This document shows, one piece after another, positions 1,805-47,298 of a stretch of 55,510 bases of DNA; the first letter of the stretch is position 1; each line of letters starts with the position of its first letter. The position numbers were made by a program, and so were the translations under genes. The notes below the pieces were generated by a model. The model had not been told where the DNA came from, made no database searches, and saw nothing but the letters and a program-made list of their open reading frames with translations. Origin of the DNA: a virus; the IMG/VR virus record IMGVR_UViG_3300049005_000023, positions 1 to 55,510 of that record; one strand, given 5' to 3'.

Positions 1805-3590
1805 TATCCGCCTGCACTGGGTGCAGACGCTGGACGACGCGTTTGCGCTCAAGAGGTGGTTAGGCGAGCGCCGCCCAGGCGGCTGGCTTGGCGTGGATAC
1901 TGAATCCGGCGGCCTCGACTGGTGGCGGGACAAGCTTCGGCTCGTTCAGTTCGGCGACCGGCATCAGGGCTGGGCGATCGAGTCGTCGGAGTGGATGGGC
2001 CTGATCAAGGAGTGTATGACGGCGTACGAAGGCCCGCAGCTGCTCTGGAACGTGAAACATGACCTGCACTTCATGGAGGTCAACGGCATCCCGACGAAAC
2101 GTTGGTGGATGCACGACGGCCGCGCGATGACACATTTGCAGGAACCGTGGCGACGCACCGGGCTGAAGCCAACCGCCACCCGCAAGCTTGGTCAGTGGGC
2201 CGGGTACGGCGAGGCGCAGCTGAAGCAGGCGATGATGGCCGGCGGCTACGGCTACCACGACATCCCCATCGAGCTGTTCTGGCAGTACTCCGCCTTCGAC
2301 ACCGTCATCACTGCGCAGACCGGTGAGGAGGTCTGGCCGGGCATTGAGCAGTCATACCGCTCGATCTACGATCTGGAGCTCGCGTCGACGTTCGTGCTGA
2401 CCGACATGGAACGCCGAGGCATCATGACGGACCGGGACTGGATGGTCCGGCATCTGGATGAGTGGACCCAAGCTCAGGACGTGATCGCGCTCCGGCTGCG
2501 AAACGACTACTGGATCGGTAACCCGGCATCGGACCGCCAAGTAGAGAAGTCGTTGCGGGATCTGGCCGGCTGGGTGCCGATCGTCTTCACGGACAAAGGC
2601 AACATCAGCCTGGAACGCGAAGTACTGCAGGGGATCGGGCATCCGATAGCCGACCTGGTGGTCGAGTGGCGCCAGCTGAAACGGCTGAGGGAGTACGCCT
2701 CCAGCCATCTGGAGCTCGCCGGTCCTGATGGGCGCCTGCACTGCAAGATCAACCCGCTGGGCACCCGCACTGGGCGCGAGTCGGCGAGCTCTCCCAATTT
2801 GCAGAACCTACCTCGCGACGACAACCGGATCCGGAACGGGTTTATTGCTTCGCCCGGTACAAAGCTTTTATTTGCCGATTATGATCAAATAGAAGGCCGA
2901 TTGTTTGCCTCTTTCAGCGGTGATGTAAATATGCTGGCAAGCATTAGATACGGAGATGAGATGACGGGCCGTGGTTACAGCGGCTACGACATGCACTCGA
3001 TGGCAGCCCGGATGATTTTCGGGATCGGGGTGGATCAGCCGGTCCCGAAAACACACCGGAACAAGGCAAAGACTGGGCAGTTCTCCAAGATCTATGGGGT
3101 CGGACTGGATAAGTTTGCCGCGCGCAACGGTATGACGCTGGATGAGGCGCGGGCCTTCTTTGCGGTGTACGAGGGGCAGTTTCCGGAGACCCGGAAATCC
3201 GGGTTCCAGTCCCGTATCACCAAGGAGCTGATCGACCGGGAGTGGGCCGAGGGTGAGGCCTACGTACTGACGGCGTACGGCCGAAAGGAGCCGTGCTACC
3301 CGAGCCAGGCGTACAAAGCCTTGAACTACAAGATTCAGGGCACCGCGGCCGACGTGCTGAAAGACCGGAAGGTTGCCCTGAGCAAGACCTGGCTGGGCGA
3401 GTGCATGCTGCTGAGCATTCACGACGAGGTGATTTTTGAAATCCCGGAAGACTCCGTAGCCGAAGCCGTACGAACAGTCCGAGAGACGATGCCGGAGCGA
3501 GACAAATTCCAGGTCCCCCTAACTGTTGGGATCGCAATCGGGGATCGGTGGGGCGAGAAGACCGACGTACCGGCATCCTATGCGGCATGA
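1788..3590 (+). CDS. polA: Family A DNA polymerase with 3'-5' exonuclease domain
   Basis: The 600-aa replicative polymerase of the phage. The N-terminal proofreading domain begins with the exo I motif VDTES (D37, E39). The polymerase domain shows motif A DYDQIEGR (364-371), the O-helix motif B with R, K and Y spaced as RNKAKTGQFSKIYG (about 424-437) and motif C HDE (545-547). No 5'-3' exonuclease domain is present, as is usual in phages. The GTG at 1788 is preferred because it lies just inside the RNase H gene; earlier in-frame starts lie deep inside that gene. About 110 bases around motif A (2841-2960) are markedly AT-richer in codon choice than the rest. It works with the SNF2 helicase downstream and the primase-helicase at 47876. 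Confidence 0.93.
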   Translation: MPGSTDIRLHWVQTLDDAFALKRWLGERRPGGWLGVDTESGGLDWWRDKLRLVQFGDRHQGWAIESSEWMGLIKECMTAYEGPQLLWNVKHDLHFMEVNGIPTKRWWMHDGRAMTHLQEPWRRTGLKPTATRKLGQWAGYGEAQLKQAMMAGGYGYHDIPIELFWQYSAFDTVITAQTGEEVWPGIEQSYRSIYDLELASTFVLTDMERRGIMTDRDWMVRHLDEWTQAQDVIALRLRNDYWIGNPASDRQVEKSLRDLAGWVPIVFTDKGNISLEREVLQGIGHPIADLVVEWRQLKRLREYASSHLELAGPDGRLHCKINPLGTRTGRESASSPNLQNLPRDDNRIRNGFIASPGTKLLFADYDQIEGRLFASFSGDVNMLASIRYGDEMTGRGYSGYDMHSMAARMIFGIGVDQPVPKTHRNKAKTGQFSKIYGVGLDKFAARNGMTLDEARAFFAVYEGQFPETRKSGFQSRITKELIDREWAEGEAYVLTAYGRKEPCYPSQAYKALNYKIQGTAADVLKDRKVALSKTWLGECMLLSIHDEVIFEIPEDSVAEAVRTVRETMPERDKFQVPLTVGIAIGDRWGEKTDVPASYAA

Positions 3591-4440: not shown

Positions 4441-4988
4441 TGGCACCGTTCGAACCGATCGGTCCTACGGCACGCTGGAAAACCGTTTACGAAGAGGTTC
4501 TGATCAAGAAGCGCCGGGATCAGATCGCCACGTATGAAGAGATCGGCGAGGTTCTAGGGCTGCACCCGGAAGATGCGCGGCATACCATTCAGATGGTCGT
4601 ACGCCGGGCAGCCAAAGAGCTACTGCTGCGCAACGATACTGCGTTGGAGGCAATCAACAACGTCGGGTATCGGCTGGTCATGCCGGACGAGCACACCGGC
4701 CTTGCACGTCGGCAGCAGAGACGTTCCAGCCGGGCACTGCAGCAGGGACACCAGCAAGTCACGCACGTCGACTTCACCAAGATGGATCCTGAAGCCCGCA
4801 AGGCAATAGAGACAATGGCGAACGCCTTTGCGATGCAGATGGAGTTTAACCGTCGTCTGGACGTTCGGCAGCAAAACCTGAAGAAGGCGTTGAACTCGGT
4901 GGTCAAACGGCAGGATCGCACGGAGGAAGAAACCCGACAGCGCCTCGAAGATCTAGAGCGGAAGATCCGCGAGTTGGGCGACAACTAA
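4440..4988 (+). CDS. Winged-helix/HTH protein with C-terminal coiled coil
   Basis: A 182-aa protein with two parts. Residues 15-75 contain an HTH-like stretch (TYEEIGEVLGLHPEDARHTI) followed by a helix and a short wing ending NNVGYRLVMP. Residues 110-180 are a long charged helix with heptad-like spacing (LKKALNSVVKRQDRTEEE...LEDLERKIRELG), likely a dimerising coiled coil. This architecture fits a dimeric DNA-binding protein, and it is one candidate for the factor reading the symmetrical CTATAG elements; an origin- or replication-associated role is equally possible. ATG overlaps the previous stop and its own stop overlaps the next ATG, so it is within an operon. Confidence 0.65.
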   Translation: MAPFEPIGPTARWKTVYEEVLIKKRRDQIATYEEIGEVLGLHPEDARHTIQMVVRRAAKELLLRNDTALEAINNVGYRLVMPDEHTGLARRQQRRSSRALQQGHQQVTHVDFTKMDPEARKAIETMANAFAMQMEFNRRLDVRQQNLKKALNSVVKRQDRTEEETRQRLEDLERKIRELGDN

Positions 4989-14054: not shown

Positions 14055-14462
14055 TCAGGCTACCAGACTCAGGTTGCCTTTCGTCAATACCGGACTGTCC
14101 TCCGTGCTCTTGAAGGACGGCACAACCAATGGACTGGTGCGGTCCCGGACGAACACACCGCCGAGGATGGCCACCAGGCCAAGCAAAGCAGCGGTCTGGT
14201 CGACGGTCAGCTCGAGCCGATATGCCGCAAAAAGCGCGATGAGAGCCTTCGCCGCTGCGGTGAGCGCAGCCAGCAAAGTATCCCGGACCGACCAGGACTC
14301 CCACACCCCGAGTACGGCGAACAGCACCGCCATGATTGCGCCTACTCGCTCGTCGGTCAGGTGCAGCTGTGCGGTGACCTGGTGCAGCGTCAGCACGAAG
14401 GCGAACACGGCCTGGATCACGCCGAGCCAGAAGGCCGGCTGCCTACCGAAAATGGTTTTCAC
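14055..14462 (-). CDS. Holin
   Basis: A 135-aa membrane protein directly after the endolysin gene, GTG start overlapping its stop. Three hydrophobic helices are visible at about residues 11-29 (FWLGVIQAVFAFVLTLHQV), 41-55 (VGAIMAVLFAVLGVW) and 85-105 (LTVDQTAALLGLVAILGGVFV), with an amphipathic helix between. Size, number of helices and position are those of actinophage holins that release the endolysin. Two other membrane genes (16296, 16652) are nearby and could be co-holins or antiholins. Confidence 0.85.
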   Translation of the reverse strand: MKTIFGRQPAFWLGVIQAVFAFVLTLHQVTAQLHLTDERVGAIMAVLFAVLGVWESWSVRDTLLAALTAAAKALIALFAAYRLELTVDQTAALLGLVAILGGVFVRDRTSPLVVPSFKSTEDSPVLTKGNLSLVA

Positions 14463-15502
14463 GAACCGTCTCCTTCATGCGGAGCCGGCGACATGGTGCC
14501 GTCGGCATTCAGGAACGTCTGGAGCTGCGCGGCCGACGGCCTGGCCGCCAGGTCGCTCACGCTGGAGTCCAACGCAGTGGCGAGCTCCCGGGATTGCGCG
14601 GTCATGCCCTGCGCGTCCAGAGCTTGCGGGGTCAGGTCGTTGCTGTCGAGTGCGGCAACCGCATTCTCAACTCGATCCAGCTGGAGCTTGATGGCCTGGA
14701 TCATCTTCAGCAGCGCCGTACCGGTGCCGTGCGGGTCAACCCAGAACCGGACGGCGTACTCTTCCTCTTCGGCCTGCATCATCGCGCGCAGCTGTGCTTC
14801 GGTCCAGGGCATGTCGTCTACCTCTTGTGTCGGGGGTTTGCTGGTGGTGGGGGCCGCGAGTTTTCCCGTGGCAACGTAGGTGCCGGTCGCCTTTGCGCCG
14901 GCCGCCAGAACAGCGCGTACGTCCTTGCGGAACTGGTACATCCGCACGCCGTAGGGGTCGTCCTTGCGCCGGGTGTGCTCGCGGTGAGCGAGATTGGACA
15001 ACGCTGACCACCCGAGCAGGTCACACATCGCCGCTGCCCAGAGCACTGCGCCGCGGTACTGCGCAGCAGTCGGCGGGACCGTGCCGGAGTAGATCCACTC
15101 GTTGCCGAGGTAGATCGCATTGCCGTTGATCCCGTCCGGGCCGGGCTTGAGTTCGACGGCGTAGCCGTTGTAGTTCTCGTTCTCAATCGCCGTGGCAGTG
15201 GCGCTCGAGCCTGAGCCCGCATGGTTGGCCCGGCCGGTTGCACCGATGTGAATGGTTCCGCCGGAGTCGGTGGCGACGTTGCACAGCGGTCCGGGAATAC
15301 CTTCGGCAGGGCGGCCGGTGACGAACAGAAAGTACAGGTACGACGCGGAGGCAGACCCGCCACCGGTGTGGTGGTGCGTCAGGCCGTGAGGCTCGACACC
15401 GCCTGGACGGCCGCGAGTAGCAGCTCCGTTGTAGACGATGAAGCGCACGTGCCATTCCGCCAGTTTGGCGGTAATCTGCGCGAGGGTAGGCGCCTTGGCC
15501 AT
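14459..15502 (-). CDS. Endolysin: N-acetylmuramoyl-L-alanine amidase
   Basis: A 347-aa lysin. The N-terminal domain is a zinc amidase of the PGRP/Amidase_2 type: THHHTGG (His 43-45), a conserved ENENYN/AVELKPG core and a C-terminal HREHTRRKDDPYG containing the second His ligand. It would cut the bond between muramic acid and the stem peptide. Residues 215-347 form a separate helical domain with a proline/threonine linker (APTTSKPPTQEVDD), perhaps for cell-wall binding. The ATG at 15502 follows GAAGGGAAG. A degenerate CTATAG element lies just upstream. Confidence 0.9.
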   Translation of the reverse strand: MAKAPTLAQITAKLAEWHVRFIVYNGAATRGRPGGVEPHGLTHHHTGGGSASASYLYFLFVTGRPAEGIPGPLCNVATDSGGTIHIGATGRANHAGSGSSATATAIENENYNGYAVELKPGPDGINGNAIYLGNEWIYSGTVPPTAAQYRGAVLWAAAMCDLLGWSALSNLAHREHTRRKDDPYGVRMYQFRKDVRAVLAAGAKATGTYVATGKLAAPTTSKPPTQEVDDMPWTEAQLRAMMQAEEEEYAVRFWVDPHGTGTALLKMIQAIKLQLDRVENAVAALDSNDLTPQALDAQGMTAQSRELATALDSSVSDLAARPSAAQLQTFLNADGTMSPAPHEGDGS

Positions 15503-41003: not shown

Positions 41004-41030
41004 ACTATAGTAATTCTATAGCTAGGTCAA
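41004..41030 (-). promoter_or_regulatory. Promoter with perfect CTATAG dyad (site I)
   Basis: CTATAG (41005-41010), TAATT, CTATAG (41016-41021). Minus strand: TTGACC (41030-41025), 15-bp spacer, TATAGT (41009-41004), eight bases to ATG 40995. The unit runs from 40995 to 39956. Confidence 0.78.
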
Positions 41031-41034
41031 CAGG

Positions 41035-41232
41035 TTAAGGCCGCGTCCAGCCCGGATCTCCTGGCGCCTTCGGCTCAGGCTCACCCGGCGGGTAGTAGAT
41101 CGATATCGGATGCTGCGGACGCTGATGCGGGATAACCAGCGGCGACACGTCCACGCGCGGCGCCGGCCAGAAAGCTACGGCAGCGGCAACAACCAGCCCG
41201 GTAAGCCCGGCCGCCCAACGCCAGCACGTCAT
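41035..41232 (-). CDS. Small membrane or secreted protein (65 aa)
   Basis: ATG 41232 overlaps the upstream stop (ATGA). N-terminal hydrophobic segment (WRWAAGLTGLVVAAAVAFWPA), then a Pro-rich tail (PQHPISIYYPPGEPEPKAPGDPGW). Either a one-helix membrane protein with an outside Pro-rich tail or an exported peptide. It is the last gene of the unit that begins at the lipoprotein gene 43674. Confidence 0.6.
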   Translation of the reverse strand: MTCWRWAAGLTGLVVAAAVAFWPAPRVDVSPLVIPHQRPQHPISIYYPPGEPEPKAPGDPGWTRP

Positions 41233-41624
41233 TCCGCACCGCCGATGATCAGGCGGGCCAGCGCCAGCGCGTGGCTATTCGGGTCCGTCCCGGCGTTCAT
41301 CGCTCGCACACGCTCATCGAGCAGCCATTCGGCCAGCGCCTTGCCGACGAGCGGATTCGTCGCGGCGATGTAGGCGGCGTCCTCGAAGCCACCAGCTCGG
41401 GCGACACGTCGGGATGTCGAGTGAGCTGCGTGCGGTTGATCCGATGGTGGCGGGCCAACGGCGATGAACAAGCTGACGCGATGCGCGCGCGGCATCCGAC
41501 CACCCAGCCAGAACTGGCCGTACCCGCTCGGCGAGAGGCTCCCGGTCCAGAGCATGCACCCGCCACCATCCGGCAGTGACACCTTCTCCCAGAACCGGCG
41601 CACGTCACTCTCAGCCGGCGTCAC
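41229..41624 (-). CDS. Truncated HNH-type domain fused to another phage protein tail
   Basis: GTG 41624, GTGA overlap upstream. Residues 1-55 (DVRRFWEKVSLPDGGGCMLWTGSLSPSGYGQFWLGGRMPRAHRVSLFIAVGPPPSD) are clearly the N-terminal part of a phage HNH endonuclease, but the His-Asn-His block that should follow VGP is missing. From about residue 75 (FEDAAYIAATNPLVGKALAEWLLDERVRAMNAG...SHALALARLIIGG) the sequence resembles the C-terminus of a different small actinophage protein. This looks like a recombination product of an HNH gene and a resident gene; nuclease activity is unlikely. Confidence 0.65.
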   Translation of the reverse strand: MTPAESDVRRFWEKVSLPDGGGCMLWTGSLSPSGYGQFWLGGRMPRAHRVSLFIAVGPPPSDQPHAAHSTSRRVARAGGFEDAAYIAATNPLVGKALAEWLLDERVRAMNAGTDPNSHALALARLIIGGAE

Positions 41625-42181
41625 GATTCGGCTCCGTTCAGCAGCAGGACCATTGAGCCAGCGAGAACCTCGACCCACTGGTCGATCACCTGAGAGCGCA
41701 TCGGCTCGTGCAGGTTGTCGCTGAAGTTCGACCGCACGAGTTGTTCCCGCATTGCACGTTCGATCTGCTCCCGTGTCGGCATGGGCCGGGCCGCGCTGGA
41801 ACTGCTGATGGCTACGTTCAGGAGCTCGCACGTGCCCACTTGCAGGCAGCAAGGCCCGGCATCCGCTTCCGCGTCCACCAGCGGCCGGGCGTCGCGCACC
41901 TCTACAACCGTGTTGCACACCGTGTTGTACGGGTTCGGCGTCGGGTCATCCCAGTAGTCGTTGCCGTAGCCGCCGTCCTGGTGGTGTTCCCAACCGATGC
42001 GGTGCCCCGCGCTCCATGCTGAGGCCGCCGACGGGGCATCTTCGGCAGGGTGGGCGGCGAGCATCGCGTCCAGTCGGTCGATCACGGTGGACGGGACGTC
42101 GTACTGCGCACGGTCCGGGTATGAGCGGTCGAGGTCGGCCCGCAGCTCGTTCAGCGCGCCCTGCAGGCTCTGGTCGCTCAT
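41621..42181 (-). CDS. Hypothetical protein (186 aa)
   Basis: ATG 42181 (MSDQSLQGALNELRADLDRSYPDRAQYD) gives an ATGA overlap. Helical N-terminal part, a middle with aromatic/Asp-rich turns (WEHHQDGGYGNDYWDDPTPNPYNTVCNTVVEV) and CC, and a helical C-terminus (TREQIERAMREQLVRSNFSDNLHEPMRSQVIDQWVEVLAGSMVLLL). No family recognised. Confidence 0.6.
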   Translation of the reverse strand: MSDQSLQGALNELRADLDRSYPDRAQYDVPSTVIDRLDAMLAAHPAEDAPSAASAWSAGHRIGWEHHQDGGYGNDYWDDPTPNPYNTVCNTVVEVRDARPLVDAEADAGPCCLQVGTCELLNVAISSSSAARPMPTREQIERAMREQLVRSNFSDNLHEPMRSQVIDQWVEVLAGSMVLLLNGAES

Positions 42182-42330
42182 GCCGCCACCGCCAAGGCAG
42201 CGAGCACGCCAGTCAGCAGGATGAACAACAGCCCCGGGATGACGCTGCCGAAGATGAGCACCGACAACGCGACAACAGCCGCTGACGCCAGCAAGCACAG
42301 CACCACGAATTTCCACACCGTCAACCTCAT
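42178..42330 (-). CDS. 50-aa two-helix membrane protein
   Basis: Short gene from ATG 42330 with ATGA overlaps at both ends; a longer frame upstream is inside the hydrolase gene. Two hydrophobic segments (FVVLCLLASAAVVALSVLIFG and GLLFILLTGVLAALAVAA) nearly fill the 50 residues. It follows the secreted SGNH hydrolase and may be part of the same envelope-acting set. Confidence 0.65.
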   Translation of the reverse strand: MRLTVWKFVVLCLLASAAVVALSVLIFGSVIPGLLFILLTGVLAALAVAA

Positions 42331-43142
42331 GACAGCGCCGCCAGTGCCGGGCCGACCTGTCCCATCAGCACCGCGTTGCGAAAGTCCGTCCCCAGCGGGA
42401 TCTTCGGGTGGACGCCATCGGTCTCCAGGTAGTAGCCGATGCGCCACGGCGCACTCCAAAACATGCTCGCCCACGAGATGACGTCGTCCTTCGGGATCGC
42501 CTGGTAGATCTGCTGGTTGACCGCCATCGCATTGCGCTGGTCGGCCACTTCATAGCCCGGCCGGCTGATCTGCACGTCGACCCACATCAGCCGCGTGGTG
42601 CTGGGCAACCCTGCCTTCAGCCGGGCGATCTGCGCCGCCATCACGCTCGGGTCGAAAATGTCGTTGGTCCCAGTCGCCATCACGATGAGCTTGGGCTTCG
42701 TGGTCAGGCTCAGCACCCGGTCAACGGCTGGCGCGGTCGGGCGGCCCGACCAGTAGTCCACCGCCGCGGTGTGCCCGGCCGCTTCGACCGCCGAGATGAA
42801 CCCGGCGTAGCTCCGGGTCGTGATGGAGTCCCCGATGAGCAGCACGTCGGCCTGCGGGTCGCCGTCGTACGGCGTATCGAGCAGGTCTCCGACGGTGCCG
42901 TGGGTGAGCGTCTGCCAAGGTGCCAGTGTCCCGCTGCCGTAGTCGGTCATACGCTTCACGGTAGCCGCGCTCAGCTCCAAGTGTTGGGCGGCGTTTGCTG
43001 CGCCGGGGCCAGGTGAGGCATACAGCGCGCCAATCGCCGCGGCAAAGACGGCGGTAAGCGCAGTCAATCGCCGGACGTGATCGCCTACCGTCGTACGGCG
43101 GTGCCGAGCGGCCGGCCGGTGGGTCCTGCAGTGGTGGGTCAC
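42327..43142 (-). CDS. Secreted SGNH/GDSL-family hydrolase
   Basis: A 271-aa protein from GTG 43142. A basic start and hydrophobic segment (LTALTAVFAAAIGALYA, about 26-42) followed by Ala-x-Ala (AANAAQ) predict a signal peptide or anchor. The hydrolase domain has all SGNH blocks: LLIGDSIT (S106), a Gly in block II (SGRP), GTND (N160) and DGVHP (D242, H245). Such enzymes remove acyl groups from sugars, lipids or peptidoglycan; the substrate cannot be told. It lies between a putative lipoprotein and membrane proteins under promoter site J and not with tail or lysis genes, which suggests cell-surface modification of the infected host. Confidence 0.82.
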   Translation of the reverse strand: MTHHCRTHRPAARHRRTTVGDHVRRLTALTAVFAAAIGALYASPGPGAANAAQHLELSAATVKRMTDYGSGTLAPWQTLTHGTVGDLLDTPYDGDPQADVLLIGDSITTRSYAGFISAVEAAGHTAAVDYWSGRPTAPAVDRVLSLTTKPKLIVMATGTNDIFDPSVMAAQIARLKAGLPSTTRLMWVDVQISRPGYEVADQRNAMAVNQQIYQAIPKDDVISWASMFWSAPWRIGYYLETDGVHPKIPLGTDFRNAVLMGQVGPALAALS

Positions 43143-43303
43143 TTCGTCTCCTGGTGGTGTTTGCTGCGCAGCTGTGCTGCGCGGCGCTTGTTGGCCTCGA
43201 TGTCGGCACGCTGCTGGGCGGCCGTTGGGGTTCCGAGCGCCCGCAGCACAACAGCGCGCTCGTGGCGCAGGGTCTCCCGGGTACGGCGCCGTACGGCGCG
43301 CAT
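43139..43303 (-). CDS. 54-aa basic helical protein
   Basis: ATG 43303 shares a base with the lipoprotein gene stop, and the gene ends in GTGA overlap with the hydrolase start. The product (MRAVRRRTRETLRHERAVVLRAL...ADIEANKRRAAQLRSKHHQE) is a strongly basic amphipathic helix, possibly nucleic-acid- or membrane-associated. Function unknown. Confidence 0.6.
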   Translation of the reverse strand: MRAVRRRTRETLRHERAVVLRALGTPTAAQQRADIEANKRRAAQLRSKHHQETK

Positions 43304-43674
43304 CAGGTCCACGTCCCGCAGGCGTCGTTTGCCCAGAACGTCATGCCGAGGTTGCCGGTGCCGAGCAGCACCCACTGCTCGCGGTTGCTCAGCGACCACT
43401 TCCCGGAGCTGATCTCGTCGCCGTCCTTCGCGGTAAGCGTCCAGTGGCAGCCGCGGGTCGCGCCCACGGCTTTCCATGTGCCGCGGATGGCCTTGGTCAC
43501 CGTGTGCTTGCCTGGCGACAGCGAGGTGACGGTGTGCACGTGCTGGTCGGCGTCGCCCTCAGCGGGACAGCCGCCTGCGGTCAGCACCAAGCCGGCTAGC
43601 ACGAGAGCCAAGAGCCCTCGAATGCTCCGCTTGCTGGTCACCGCACCCGCGCCCCGCATGCCTAGGTCCTTCAT
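43303..43674 (-). CDS. Putative phage-encoded lipoprotein (123 aa)
   Basis: ATG 43674 follows CGGGAGGAAG. Basic N-region (TSKRSIRG), hydrophobic core (LLALVLAGLVLTAG) and a Cys at position 36 in TAGGC, a passable lipobox. The exposed part (VHTVTSLSPGKHTVTKAIRGTWKAVGATRGCHWTLTAKDGDEISSGKWSLSNREQWVLLGTGNLGMTFWANDACGTW) is a beta domain with two further Cys. Small phage lipoproteins often block superinfection. First gene of the unit under promoter site J. Confidence 0.7.
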   Translation of the reverse strand: MKDLGMRGAGAVTSKRSIRGLLALVLAGLVLTAGGCPAEGDADQHVHTVTSLSPGKHTVTKAIRGTWKAVGATRGCHWTLTAKDGDEISSGKWSLSNREQWVLLGTGNLGMTFWANDACGTWT

Positions 43675-43703
43675 GCTTCCTCCCGGTAAATGCTTGAGCC
43701 CCG

Positions 43704-43733
43704 ACTATAAGCTTTCTATAGACGGGGCGTCAA
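43704..43733 (-). promoter_or_regulatory. Promoter with CTATAG dyad nested in a larger palindrome (site J)
   Basis: CTATAA (43705-43710), GCTTT, CTATAG (43716-43721). Flanking GCCCCG (43698-43703) and CGGGGC (43723-43728) extend the symmetry to 31 bases. Minus strand: TTGACG (43733-43728), 18-bp spacer, TATAGT (43709-43704). Drives the lipoprotein/SGNH hydrolase operon with a normal leader of about 30 nt. Confidence 0.75.
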
Positions 43734-46456: not shown

Positions 46457-46651
46457 TCATGGCACGCCGTGCAGCTTCTTGGCTACCGCGAACACCGTTC
46501 CGTCGCCCGCGTTCGGGCTGACAGCGGTAACCACCGAGGCCCACTCCACTGCAGGAATCGTGACCGCGTCGTGGTCCGCAGTCTCGATGGTGACCGCGCC
46601 GTCTTCGCCTCGCGTGAAGTCCCAGCCGTTGGACATGTGGAACGTACTCAT
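46457..46651 (-). CDS. Conserved small phage protein (64 aa)
   Basis: ATG 46651 in ATGA overlap with the putative small terminase gene. Short beta-type product (NGWDFTRGEDGAVTIETADHDAVTIPAVEWASVVTAVSPNAGDG); the EWASVVTAVS block is a common ending among small actinophage proteins. Function unknown. It ends 12 bases upstream of promoter site M. Confidence 0.68.
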   Translation of the reverse strand: MSTFHMSNGWDFTRGEDGAVTIETADHDAVTIPAVEWASVVTAVSPNAGDGTVFAVAKKLHGVP

Positions 46652-47298
46652 CCCGTCTTCCTCCCCACCTCGCGCTTGGCCTGCGCAACCTCGGCATCCG
46701 CCCGGCGTTGCGCCAGCTCGTCGCGGTAGTGCTTGAGCCGGTCCTTGACCTGCTCACCCGTCAGGCTGGACGTCTCGACCCGCTGCGTCGCGTCGCCGCT
46801 CAGCAGGCTGGCCTTGTCCACCAGGATGGCCAGCGCCGTAGCCAGGTGCTTCTTGTCGGCCGGCGACGGCTCGGCCAGCACAACCTCGACCATCCGCAGG
46901 TCCTGCACACCCCTGCCCATACCGACGGTCTTGACTTCCTTCACGACGTGCTGCGCGAAGATCTGCTCAAGGATCCGCTCCGCCCCAGCGCCAAGCTTGG
47001 CCGCCAGCGCGGCCTTGTGCTCCTGCCAGCGCCGCAGCTGGACCTCGGACACCTTCTCGGTGTTTGAGCGCATCTCCTCTGGCGAGGCGTTGGCGGACTC
47101 GAAGATTTGGGGCTCGCCGGCCGCGACGACTTCCGGGTCCAGCAGCCCCTTCTGCCAGCTGTCGTCACGCGCAGTCTTGCTGATCCACGAGGCGGAGACC
47201 CGGTTGTCCAGGAGCTCGGCAATTGTCCGCACGGGATGGCCCTGCGCGAAGAACTGCTGCGCCTTGACCCGGTCCTCCGCGGACACGCGCTTGGTCAT
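46648..47298 (-). CDS. Putative terminase small subunit
   Basis: A 216-aa protein, ATG 47298 behind CGGGAGG. The N-terminus holds an HTH (AEDRVKAQQFFAQGHPVRTIAELLDNRVSASWISKTARDDSWQKG), followed by helices and a coiled-coil C-terminal part ending in a basic tail (KHYRDELAQRRADAEVAQAKREVGRKTG). This is the architecture of small terminases (DNA-binding HTH plus oligomerisation helices). It is ~9 kb from terL, whereas the two normally adjoin; a general HTH regulator is the alternative. Confidence 0.6.
   Translation of the reverse strand: MTKRVSAEDRVKAQQFFAQGHPVRTIAELLDNRVSASWISKTARDDSWQKGLLDPEVVAAGEPQIFESANASPEEMRSNTEKVSEVQLRRWQEHKAALAAKLGAGAERILEQIFAQHVVKEVKTVGMGRGVQDLRMVEVVLAEPSPADKKHLATALAILVDKASLLSGDATQRVETSSLTGEQVKDRLKHYRDELAQRRADAEVAQAKREVGRKTG

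Follow-up and report, generated by a model that had tools for sequence, protein, structure and literature searches.

A candidate cargo operon with a predicted exported SGNH-fold esterase in an actinophage sequence

The virus sequence IMGVR_UViG_3300049005_000023, analysed here as the entire IMG/VR record of 55,510 bases (the window; its completeness as a genome is not established), contains a minus-strand operon of seven genes, including genes for a secreted SGNH/GDSL hydrolase, a putative lipoprotein and small membrane peptides. We tentatively read it, with somewhat less than even confidence, as an optional cargo operon for the export of an SGNH-fold esterase, a lipoprotein and one or two small membrane peptides, which would alter the infected cell’s own surface. 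This reading draws on the computed gene content, export signals and catalytic blocks, the OatA-like fold of the enzyme, and the conservation of the operon slot in the related contig L003 and its absence from the related contig G001, as well as on the exchange of enzyme subtype in the slot and the integrase and Ltp neighbourhoods of relatives of the enzyme. A first-pass annotation had described a lipoprotein, a basic peptide, the hydrolase and membrane proteins under one upstream site; all of these features were found at the same positions on the minus strand, along with two more genes (41621-42181 and 41229-41627) not named in its title.

The window has a GC content of 65%. The presence of a WhiB-like gene and a major capsid protein closest to those of Gordonia and Streptomyces phages (39%) indicates that the virus is an actinophage. 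Replication genes occupy 0.3 to 10.6 kb of the plus strand. The minus strand carries the virion genes, which run from 37.5 to 10.7 kb, and an amidase-like gene (14459-15502) lies among them. The operon lies on the minus strand within a 9-kb run of small genes upstream of the terminase gene.

The secreted hydrolase and its operon

The hydrolase gene (42327..43142, minus strand, 271 amino acids) has a GTG start at 43142, preceded by AGGAG. The N-terminus of the protein carries a Sec/Tat-like signal (region 1-50) with an AxA site at about residue 50, followed by the YGSG motif typical of its family at residues 68-71. A shorter start at 42950 (MTDYGSG), proposed by a gene finder, was rejected, since the GTG codon at 43142 follows the AGGAG sequence and overlaps the stop codon of the preceding gene, and a signal is present in nearly all relatives.

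Block I GDSIT (S106), block II WSGRPT (G133), block III GTNDIF (N160), block IV DQRN..VN and block V DGVH (D242/H245) were identified and are conserved in nearly all rows of an alignment of 29 sequences. All of the SGNH superfamily residues, namely, Ser, Gly, Asn and His of blocks I, II, III and V, are present, and the block II glycine agrees with an ordinary three-part oxyanion hole (PMC9487903). The export signal and the residues S106, N160 and D242/H245, predicted in the first-pass annotation, thus stand, and G133 is added to them. The protein does not reach the gathering cut-off of Lipase_GDSL_2 (PF13472) (26.3 vs 32.9 bits, E 1.3e-5), and seven of the eight family members match this model at E ≤ 0.01 (best 2.1e-11). 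The sub-threshold score points to a divergent subfamily, the placement of which in the superfamily is based on the blocks and the fold.

In the AlphaFold model, built with eight sequences, the predicted local distance difference test (pLDDT) score of the catalytic domain is mostly 77-97; a poor single-sequence model (pLDDT 48) was set aside. Of the 42 PDB entries that matched the model in a Foldseek search (E ≤ 0.001), almost all are SGNH enzymes with the alpha/beta/alpha SGNH fold. The top matches are the OatA catalytic domains 5ufy, 6wn9 and 6vjp (Streptococcus pneumoniae, Staphylococcus aureus), with E values of 5.5e-7 to 3.5e-6 and TM-scores by target length of 0.65-0.77. A sequence-profile search independently ranked OatA (5ufy/5ug1) among the best matches. 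The window protein resembles the C-terminal SGNH domain of OatA (SGNH-AT3) in fold, catalytic blocks and extracellular location, but the identity is 18-23% and the protein is stand-alone and secreted; no AT3 match was found in it, and it has just one N-terminal hydrophobic segment. The modelled fold and the blocks support an O-acyl esterase, and we infer that it most likely removes O-acyl groups from a glycan of the host wall or from peptidoglycan.

The protein is free of structural domains, and its gene lies outside the virion block (10.7-37.5 kb), 27 kb from the amidase gene, in a separate operon and not in a lysis cassette. The separation from the tail and lysis clusters reported before is therefore borne out.

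The putative lipoprotein (43303..43674, minus strand, 123 amino acids) contains the lipobox LVLTAGGC and two more Cys residues. It is the sole match to the Gram-positive lipobox pattern, ending at C36, among 75 called window proteins, although the box itself, TAGGC, deviates from the LAGC-like strict form L-[AS]-[GA]-C. No Pfam family was found above the cut-off for this protein, and no relatives were found among 50,697 isolated phages. A basic peptide of 57 amino acids (43139..43312, minus strand) is encoded between the two genes and overlaps the hydrolase start by 4 bases. Two small membrane proteins, as the first-pass annotation had it, are present by hydropathy: a hydrophobic peptide of 46-50 amino acids with two predicted membrane segments (42178..42330, minus strand) and a single-pass or secreted peptide of 65 amino acids (41035..41232, minus strand) with the conserved sequences AFWPxPRVDxSP and SIYxP.

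Envelope-directed products are encoded by four of the seven operon genes vs four to six among the other ~70 genes, where the call is based on simple hydropathy, not SignalP, and counts the short 41035 peptide among the four. The hypergeometric p value of this enrichment is 0.0017, or 0.0042 when further small hydrophobic open reading frames are counted; the operon was picked after inspection, so both values are descriptive. By the same hydropathy measure, an N-terminal hydrophobic segment was found in only 7 of 75 called proteins, and those outside the lysis-region genes and the tape measure are all encoded within the operon.

The operon is bracketed by copies of the element CTATAG-N5-CTATAG. 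The copy at 43705..43721 (minus strand, one mismatch), the upstream site J of the first-pass annotation, is a putative operon promoter/operator; the exact copy at 41005..41021 (minus strand) closes the operon and precedes the next one. The window contains 16 matches at up to three mismatches vs 3.3 expected, with copies at 280, 13579, 39939, 41005, 43705 and 45952. The element stands before operons, in some cases only ~10 bases from the start codon, and is probably a phage-specific promoter/operator.

The operon slot in related phages

In contig L003, the terminase of which is 73% identical to that of the window, the gene order is element, small gene, basic peptide, SGNH gene, another gene, 41035-type peptide, element. 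Copies of the element at corresponding operon boundaries are located at 644, 3183, 4940 and 6371, where the copy at 3183 bounds the SGNH operon and that at 4940 is the counterpart of window copy 41005. The basic peptide (L003:3437-3610), the SGNH protein and the 41035 peptide have collinear homologues in L003 (37-47% identity), and therefore these three are real genes. The 41035 peptide is 47% identical to L003:4739-4945, and the search for further copies of it turned up the L003 contig only. The gene combination is not fixed: the L003 lipoprotein (L003:5792-6133), weakly similar to that of the window (25%), sits in the next operon, and a homologue of the 42178 peptide was not seen in L003.

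The SGNH protein of L003 clusters with those of L010, L011 and L022 (support 100/100), and a tree uniting the window and L003 proteins was rejected (approximately unbiased test, p 0.0003). Blocks II and IV are YWSGRPT and DQRNAMAVN in the window vs TQSGQNT and DIRNSGWVN in L003, and this difference parallels that between the two clades. From these sequences, the enzyme looks to have been replaced by another active-site subtype within a conserved operon; the divergence of blocks II and IV is in line with a specificity swap.

The G001/L035 phage has a backbone like that of the window (terminase 65%, capsid 57%, tape measure 39-46%, replication protein 54%). In G001, only ~1.7 kb separates the homologue of 46648-47298 from the terminase gene, and neither an SGNH match nor a CTATAG element at up to three mismatches was found in this contig. 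The contig is perhaps incomplete, yet it spans the junction in question. Within this group of phages, the operon is thus an optional cargo. Contig L002 (terminase 71%) stops short of the operon and is uninformative in this respect.

Relatives of the hydrolase and possible functions

No relatives of the hydrolase were found in 50,697 isolated phages by DNA-level and tblastn searches, and isolated phages contain no member of the enzyme family as far as tblastn detects. Relatives were found with two- and eight-sequence alignments, single-sequence scans of viral and genome contigs having missed them. About ten kinds of viral contigs contain the family, as do the chromosomes of Kribbella and Saccharothrix, where its members are secreted, often with Tat-like signals. 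The Kribbella genomes G018 and G020 contain three to four secreted paralogues each. In a sample of 296 Actinomycetota genomes, the one strong match came from the Kribbella genome that served as centre, and no family member was found at E ≤ 1e-25 in the remaining 295. The window phage may have Kribbella-like hosts. A literature search on acylated wall polymers of Kribbella yielded nothing directly relevant, and the searches made turned up no publication on an exported actinophage SGNH protein.

Gene neighbourhoods were compared as the first-pass annotation had suggested, with a divided outcome. Secreted members adjoin an integrase gene in three unrelated temperate phages (L010/L011, L017 and L021). 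L017 has genes for a serine integrase, Ltp and SGNH in this order; the latter two genes overlap by 4 bases, and the Ltp protein matches PF07553 (E 3e-29). In a phage group with ~50% GC (L004-L009, L016, L018 and L020), the secreted copy is found shortly upstream of genes that look like terminase genes. In L012 a secreted copy is located between tail genes, and in L022 the copy is adjoined by two more secreted proteins. By eye, one of these two (L022:4445-5107; AVKPDCKxLxYPLCxRSVAAxQVV...) is shared with L003 (7465-8160), an otherwise different phage, and is possibly a further surface cargo candidate. Signal-less copies form the other side of the comparison: in L014 and L019 they are surrounded by tail and lysis genes, and one is present in a fragment, L015. 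Should the ancestral form be that of L014, a late-gene enzyme may have become the exported one by gaining a signal; the tree gives no direction. The tail-region neighbour of the L019 copy (L019:6657-8018) contains a second, canonical GDSL_2 domain (E 1.3e-27).

In the proposed mechanism, the phage would send the esterase out to the cell surface, while the lipoprotein and small membrane peptides would remain at the membrane, where they may hold or assist the esterase or be exclusion factors in their own right. If a wall polymer, possibly a phage receptor, were deacylated, adsorption would change, so that other phages are excluded or progeny do not re-adsorb to spent cells. A role in phage-phage or phage-host competition at the surface would agree with the optional nature of the operon, the exchange of enzyme subtype and the Ltp neighbour. 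Superinfection exclusion is the leading, though unproven, candidate for the purpose of the operon, and its sole direct link to exclusion is the one Ltp neighbour in L017.

Most known surface proteins of superinfection exclusion block DNA entry from a membrane or lipid anchor, and most known phage SGNH esterases are virion-borne; the operon appears to be a variation on both. Ltp of phage TP-J34 is an experimentally known superinfection-exclusion lipoprotein with PF07553, encoded in the lysogeny module (PMC3952083), and a PF07553 member was noted in an apparently lytic Gordonia phage (PMC4524720). It shares with the operon products the character of a phage-encoded surface protein, and a member of its family directly adjoins the L017 relative, but Ltp blocks DNA injection, and no enzyme partner was found described for it in the literature searched. 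The SGNH domains of phage tail fibres (G7C gp63.1, Klebsiella prophage receptor-binding proteins) have the same fold and deacetylate surface polymers (PMC13123978), but belong to virion proteins with structural domains, whereas the window protein is predicted to be exported from the infected cell. The lipase gp31 of the isolated Gordonia phage Bowser is likewise a stand-alone exported SGNH protein outside the tail genes, adjoining the integrase in the tail-to-integrase interval; it is unrelated, of another subfamily without the YGSG/SGRPT signature, and its function is presumed from sequence. Mycobacteriophage LysB is also a phage esterase acting on the envelope, but it is a cutinase-like alpha/beta-hydrolase of the lysis cassette, not of the SGNH fold.

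A number of results weigh against a surface-altering cargo operon. The SGNH tree has long branches, and the L003 enzyme is without the block V Asp (GGVH) and may be a dyad enzyme or inactive. Ltp was found in just one of 11 records, that of L017, and the window lipoprotein is without the PF07553 repeat; its assignment as Ltp was rejected, with no PF07553 match at E ≤ 1. The signal-less relatives among late genes of L014 and L019 are 42-51% identical. No recognisable integrase or resolvase was found in the window, the phage was accordingly rejected as a typical integrating temperate one, and a prophage-type benefit may not apply directly. As regards the earlier proposal that the gene set alters the cell surface and blocks superinfection, envelope targeting and dispensability are supported; the support for exclusion is circumstantial and comes from integrase and Ltp neighbours, and, given the signal-less late-gene relatives, the family may have a lysis or virion role.

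An auxiliary role in lysis is the main rival, which we consider rather unlikely: the exported esterase would strip peptidoglycan O-acetyl groups (or wall-glycan esters) and let the phage amidase cut. The OatA-like fold, i.e., a peptidoglycan O-acetyl active site, agrees with this, as does the L014 copy (51% identical), located between a tail-fibre-like gene and membrane/amidase genes, but the window gene is remote from the amidase gene and in another operon, its relatives adjoin integrases away from lysis genes, and the related phage G001 manages without it. The L014 and L019 tail regions likewise bring up a virion- or tail-associated adsorption enzyme, comparable to SGNH tail fibres elsewhere among phages; of the SGNH models of viral proteins that have a name, most belong to tail proteins, and SGNH receptor-binding proteins are active esterases (PMC13123978). 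With an export signal, no structural domain and a position outside the virion block, the window protein makes this the least probable explanation, and a very improbable one.

The secreted members in Kribbella and Saccharothrix chromosomes imply a cellular role of the family in such bacteria, so the cargo could instead help to feed or protect the host by modifying or degrading an external ester, namely, side groups of polysaccharides, in the manner of bacterial secreted esterases. We regard this as unlikely, since a phage apparently without an integrase would gain little from a long-term host advantage, and the co-occurring lipoprotein, membrane peptides and, in L017, Ltp gene point to the cell’s own surface as the target. 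It is still a little less likely that the exported protein is an acyltransferase, which would acylate the wall with the help of a donor protein in the host membrane: the nearest fold is the OatA transferase domain and the operon partners are hydrophobic, but an AT3/MBOAT donor protein was not found in the operon, and chromosomal and phage relatives stand alone.

A surface-altering cargo operon thus being preferred, a broader version of it can be formulated, which is doubtful at present: actinophages would share a mobile cassette based on an exported, interchangeable SGNH receptor-destroying esterase, which strips acyl groups from a wall-polymer receptor, with lytic phages keeping the slot and swapping the subtype and temperate ones carrying the cassette beside integrase and Ltp. 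To our knowledge, the phage receptors of soil actinobacteria are largely unknown. If the proposal is true, an exported receptor-deacylating esterase would join superinfection exclusion with phage SGNH esterases; actinobacterial phages would gain a receptor-destroying enzyme, and wall-polymer acylation would become a testable adsorption determinant in soil actinobacteria.

Other genes of the operon and accessory region

Two further genes complete the operon. The gene at 41621..42181 (minus strand) encodes a protein of 186 amino acids with no family match and no assigned function. The gene at 41229..41627 (minus strand) encodes a protein with an HNH-endonuclease-like N-terminal half (phrog_3593, E 1e-12), in which residues 4-69 match positions 53-110 of the 210-position profile and the HNH core is missing; its C-terminus is unrelated to the HNH half, as in a fusion. 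The HNH remnant without a catalytic core suggests a past homing-endonuclease insertion into the operon.

In L002, a ThyX-like thymidylate synthase, recognised by sequence resemblance, is encoded at 2637-3422 within the same accessory region. In the terminase large subunit of L003 (9758-12382), the part that matches window residue 456 is followed by a long insert, and this insert carries the intein-like (HINT) sequence CLAPGTQVATEHG...VHN.

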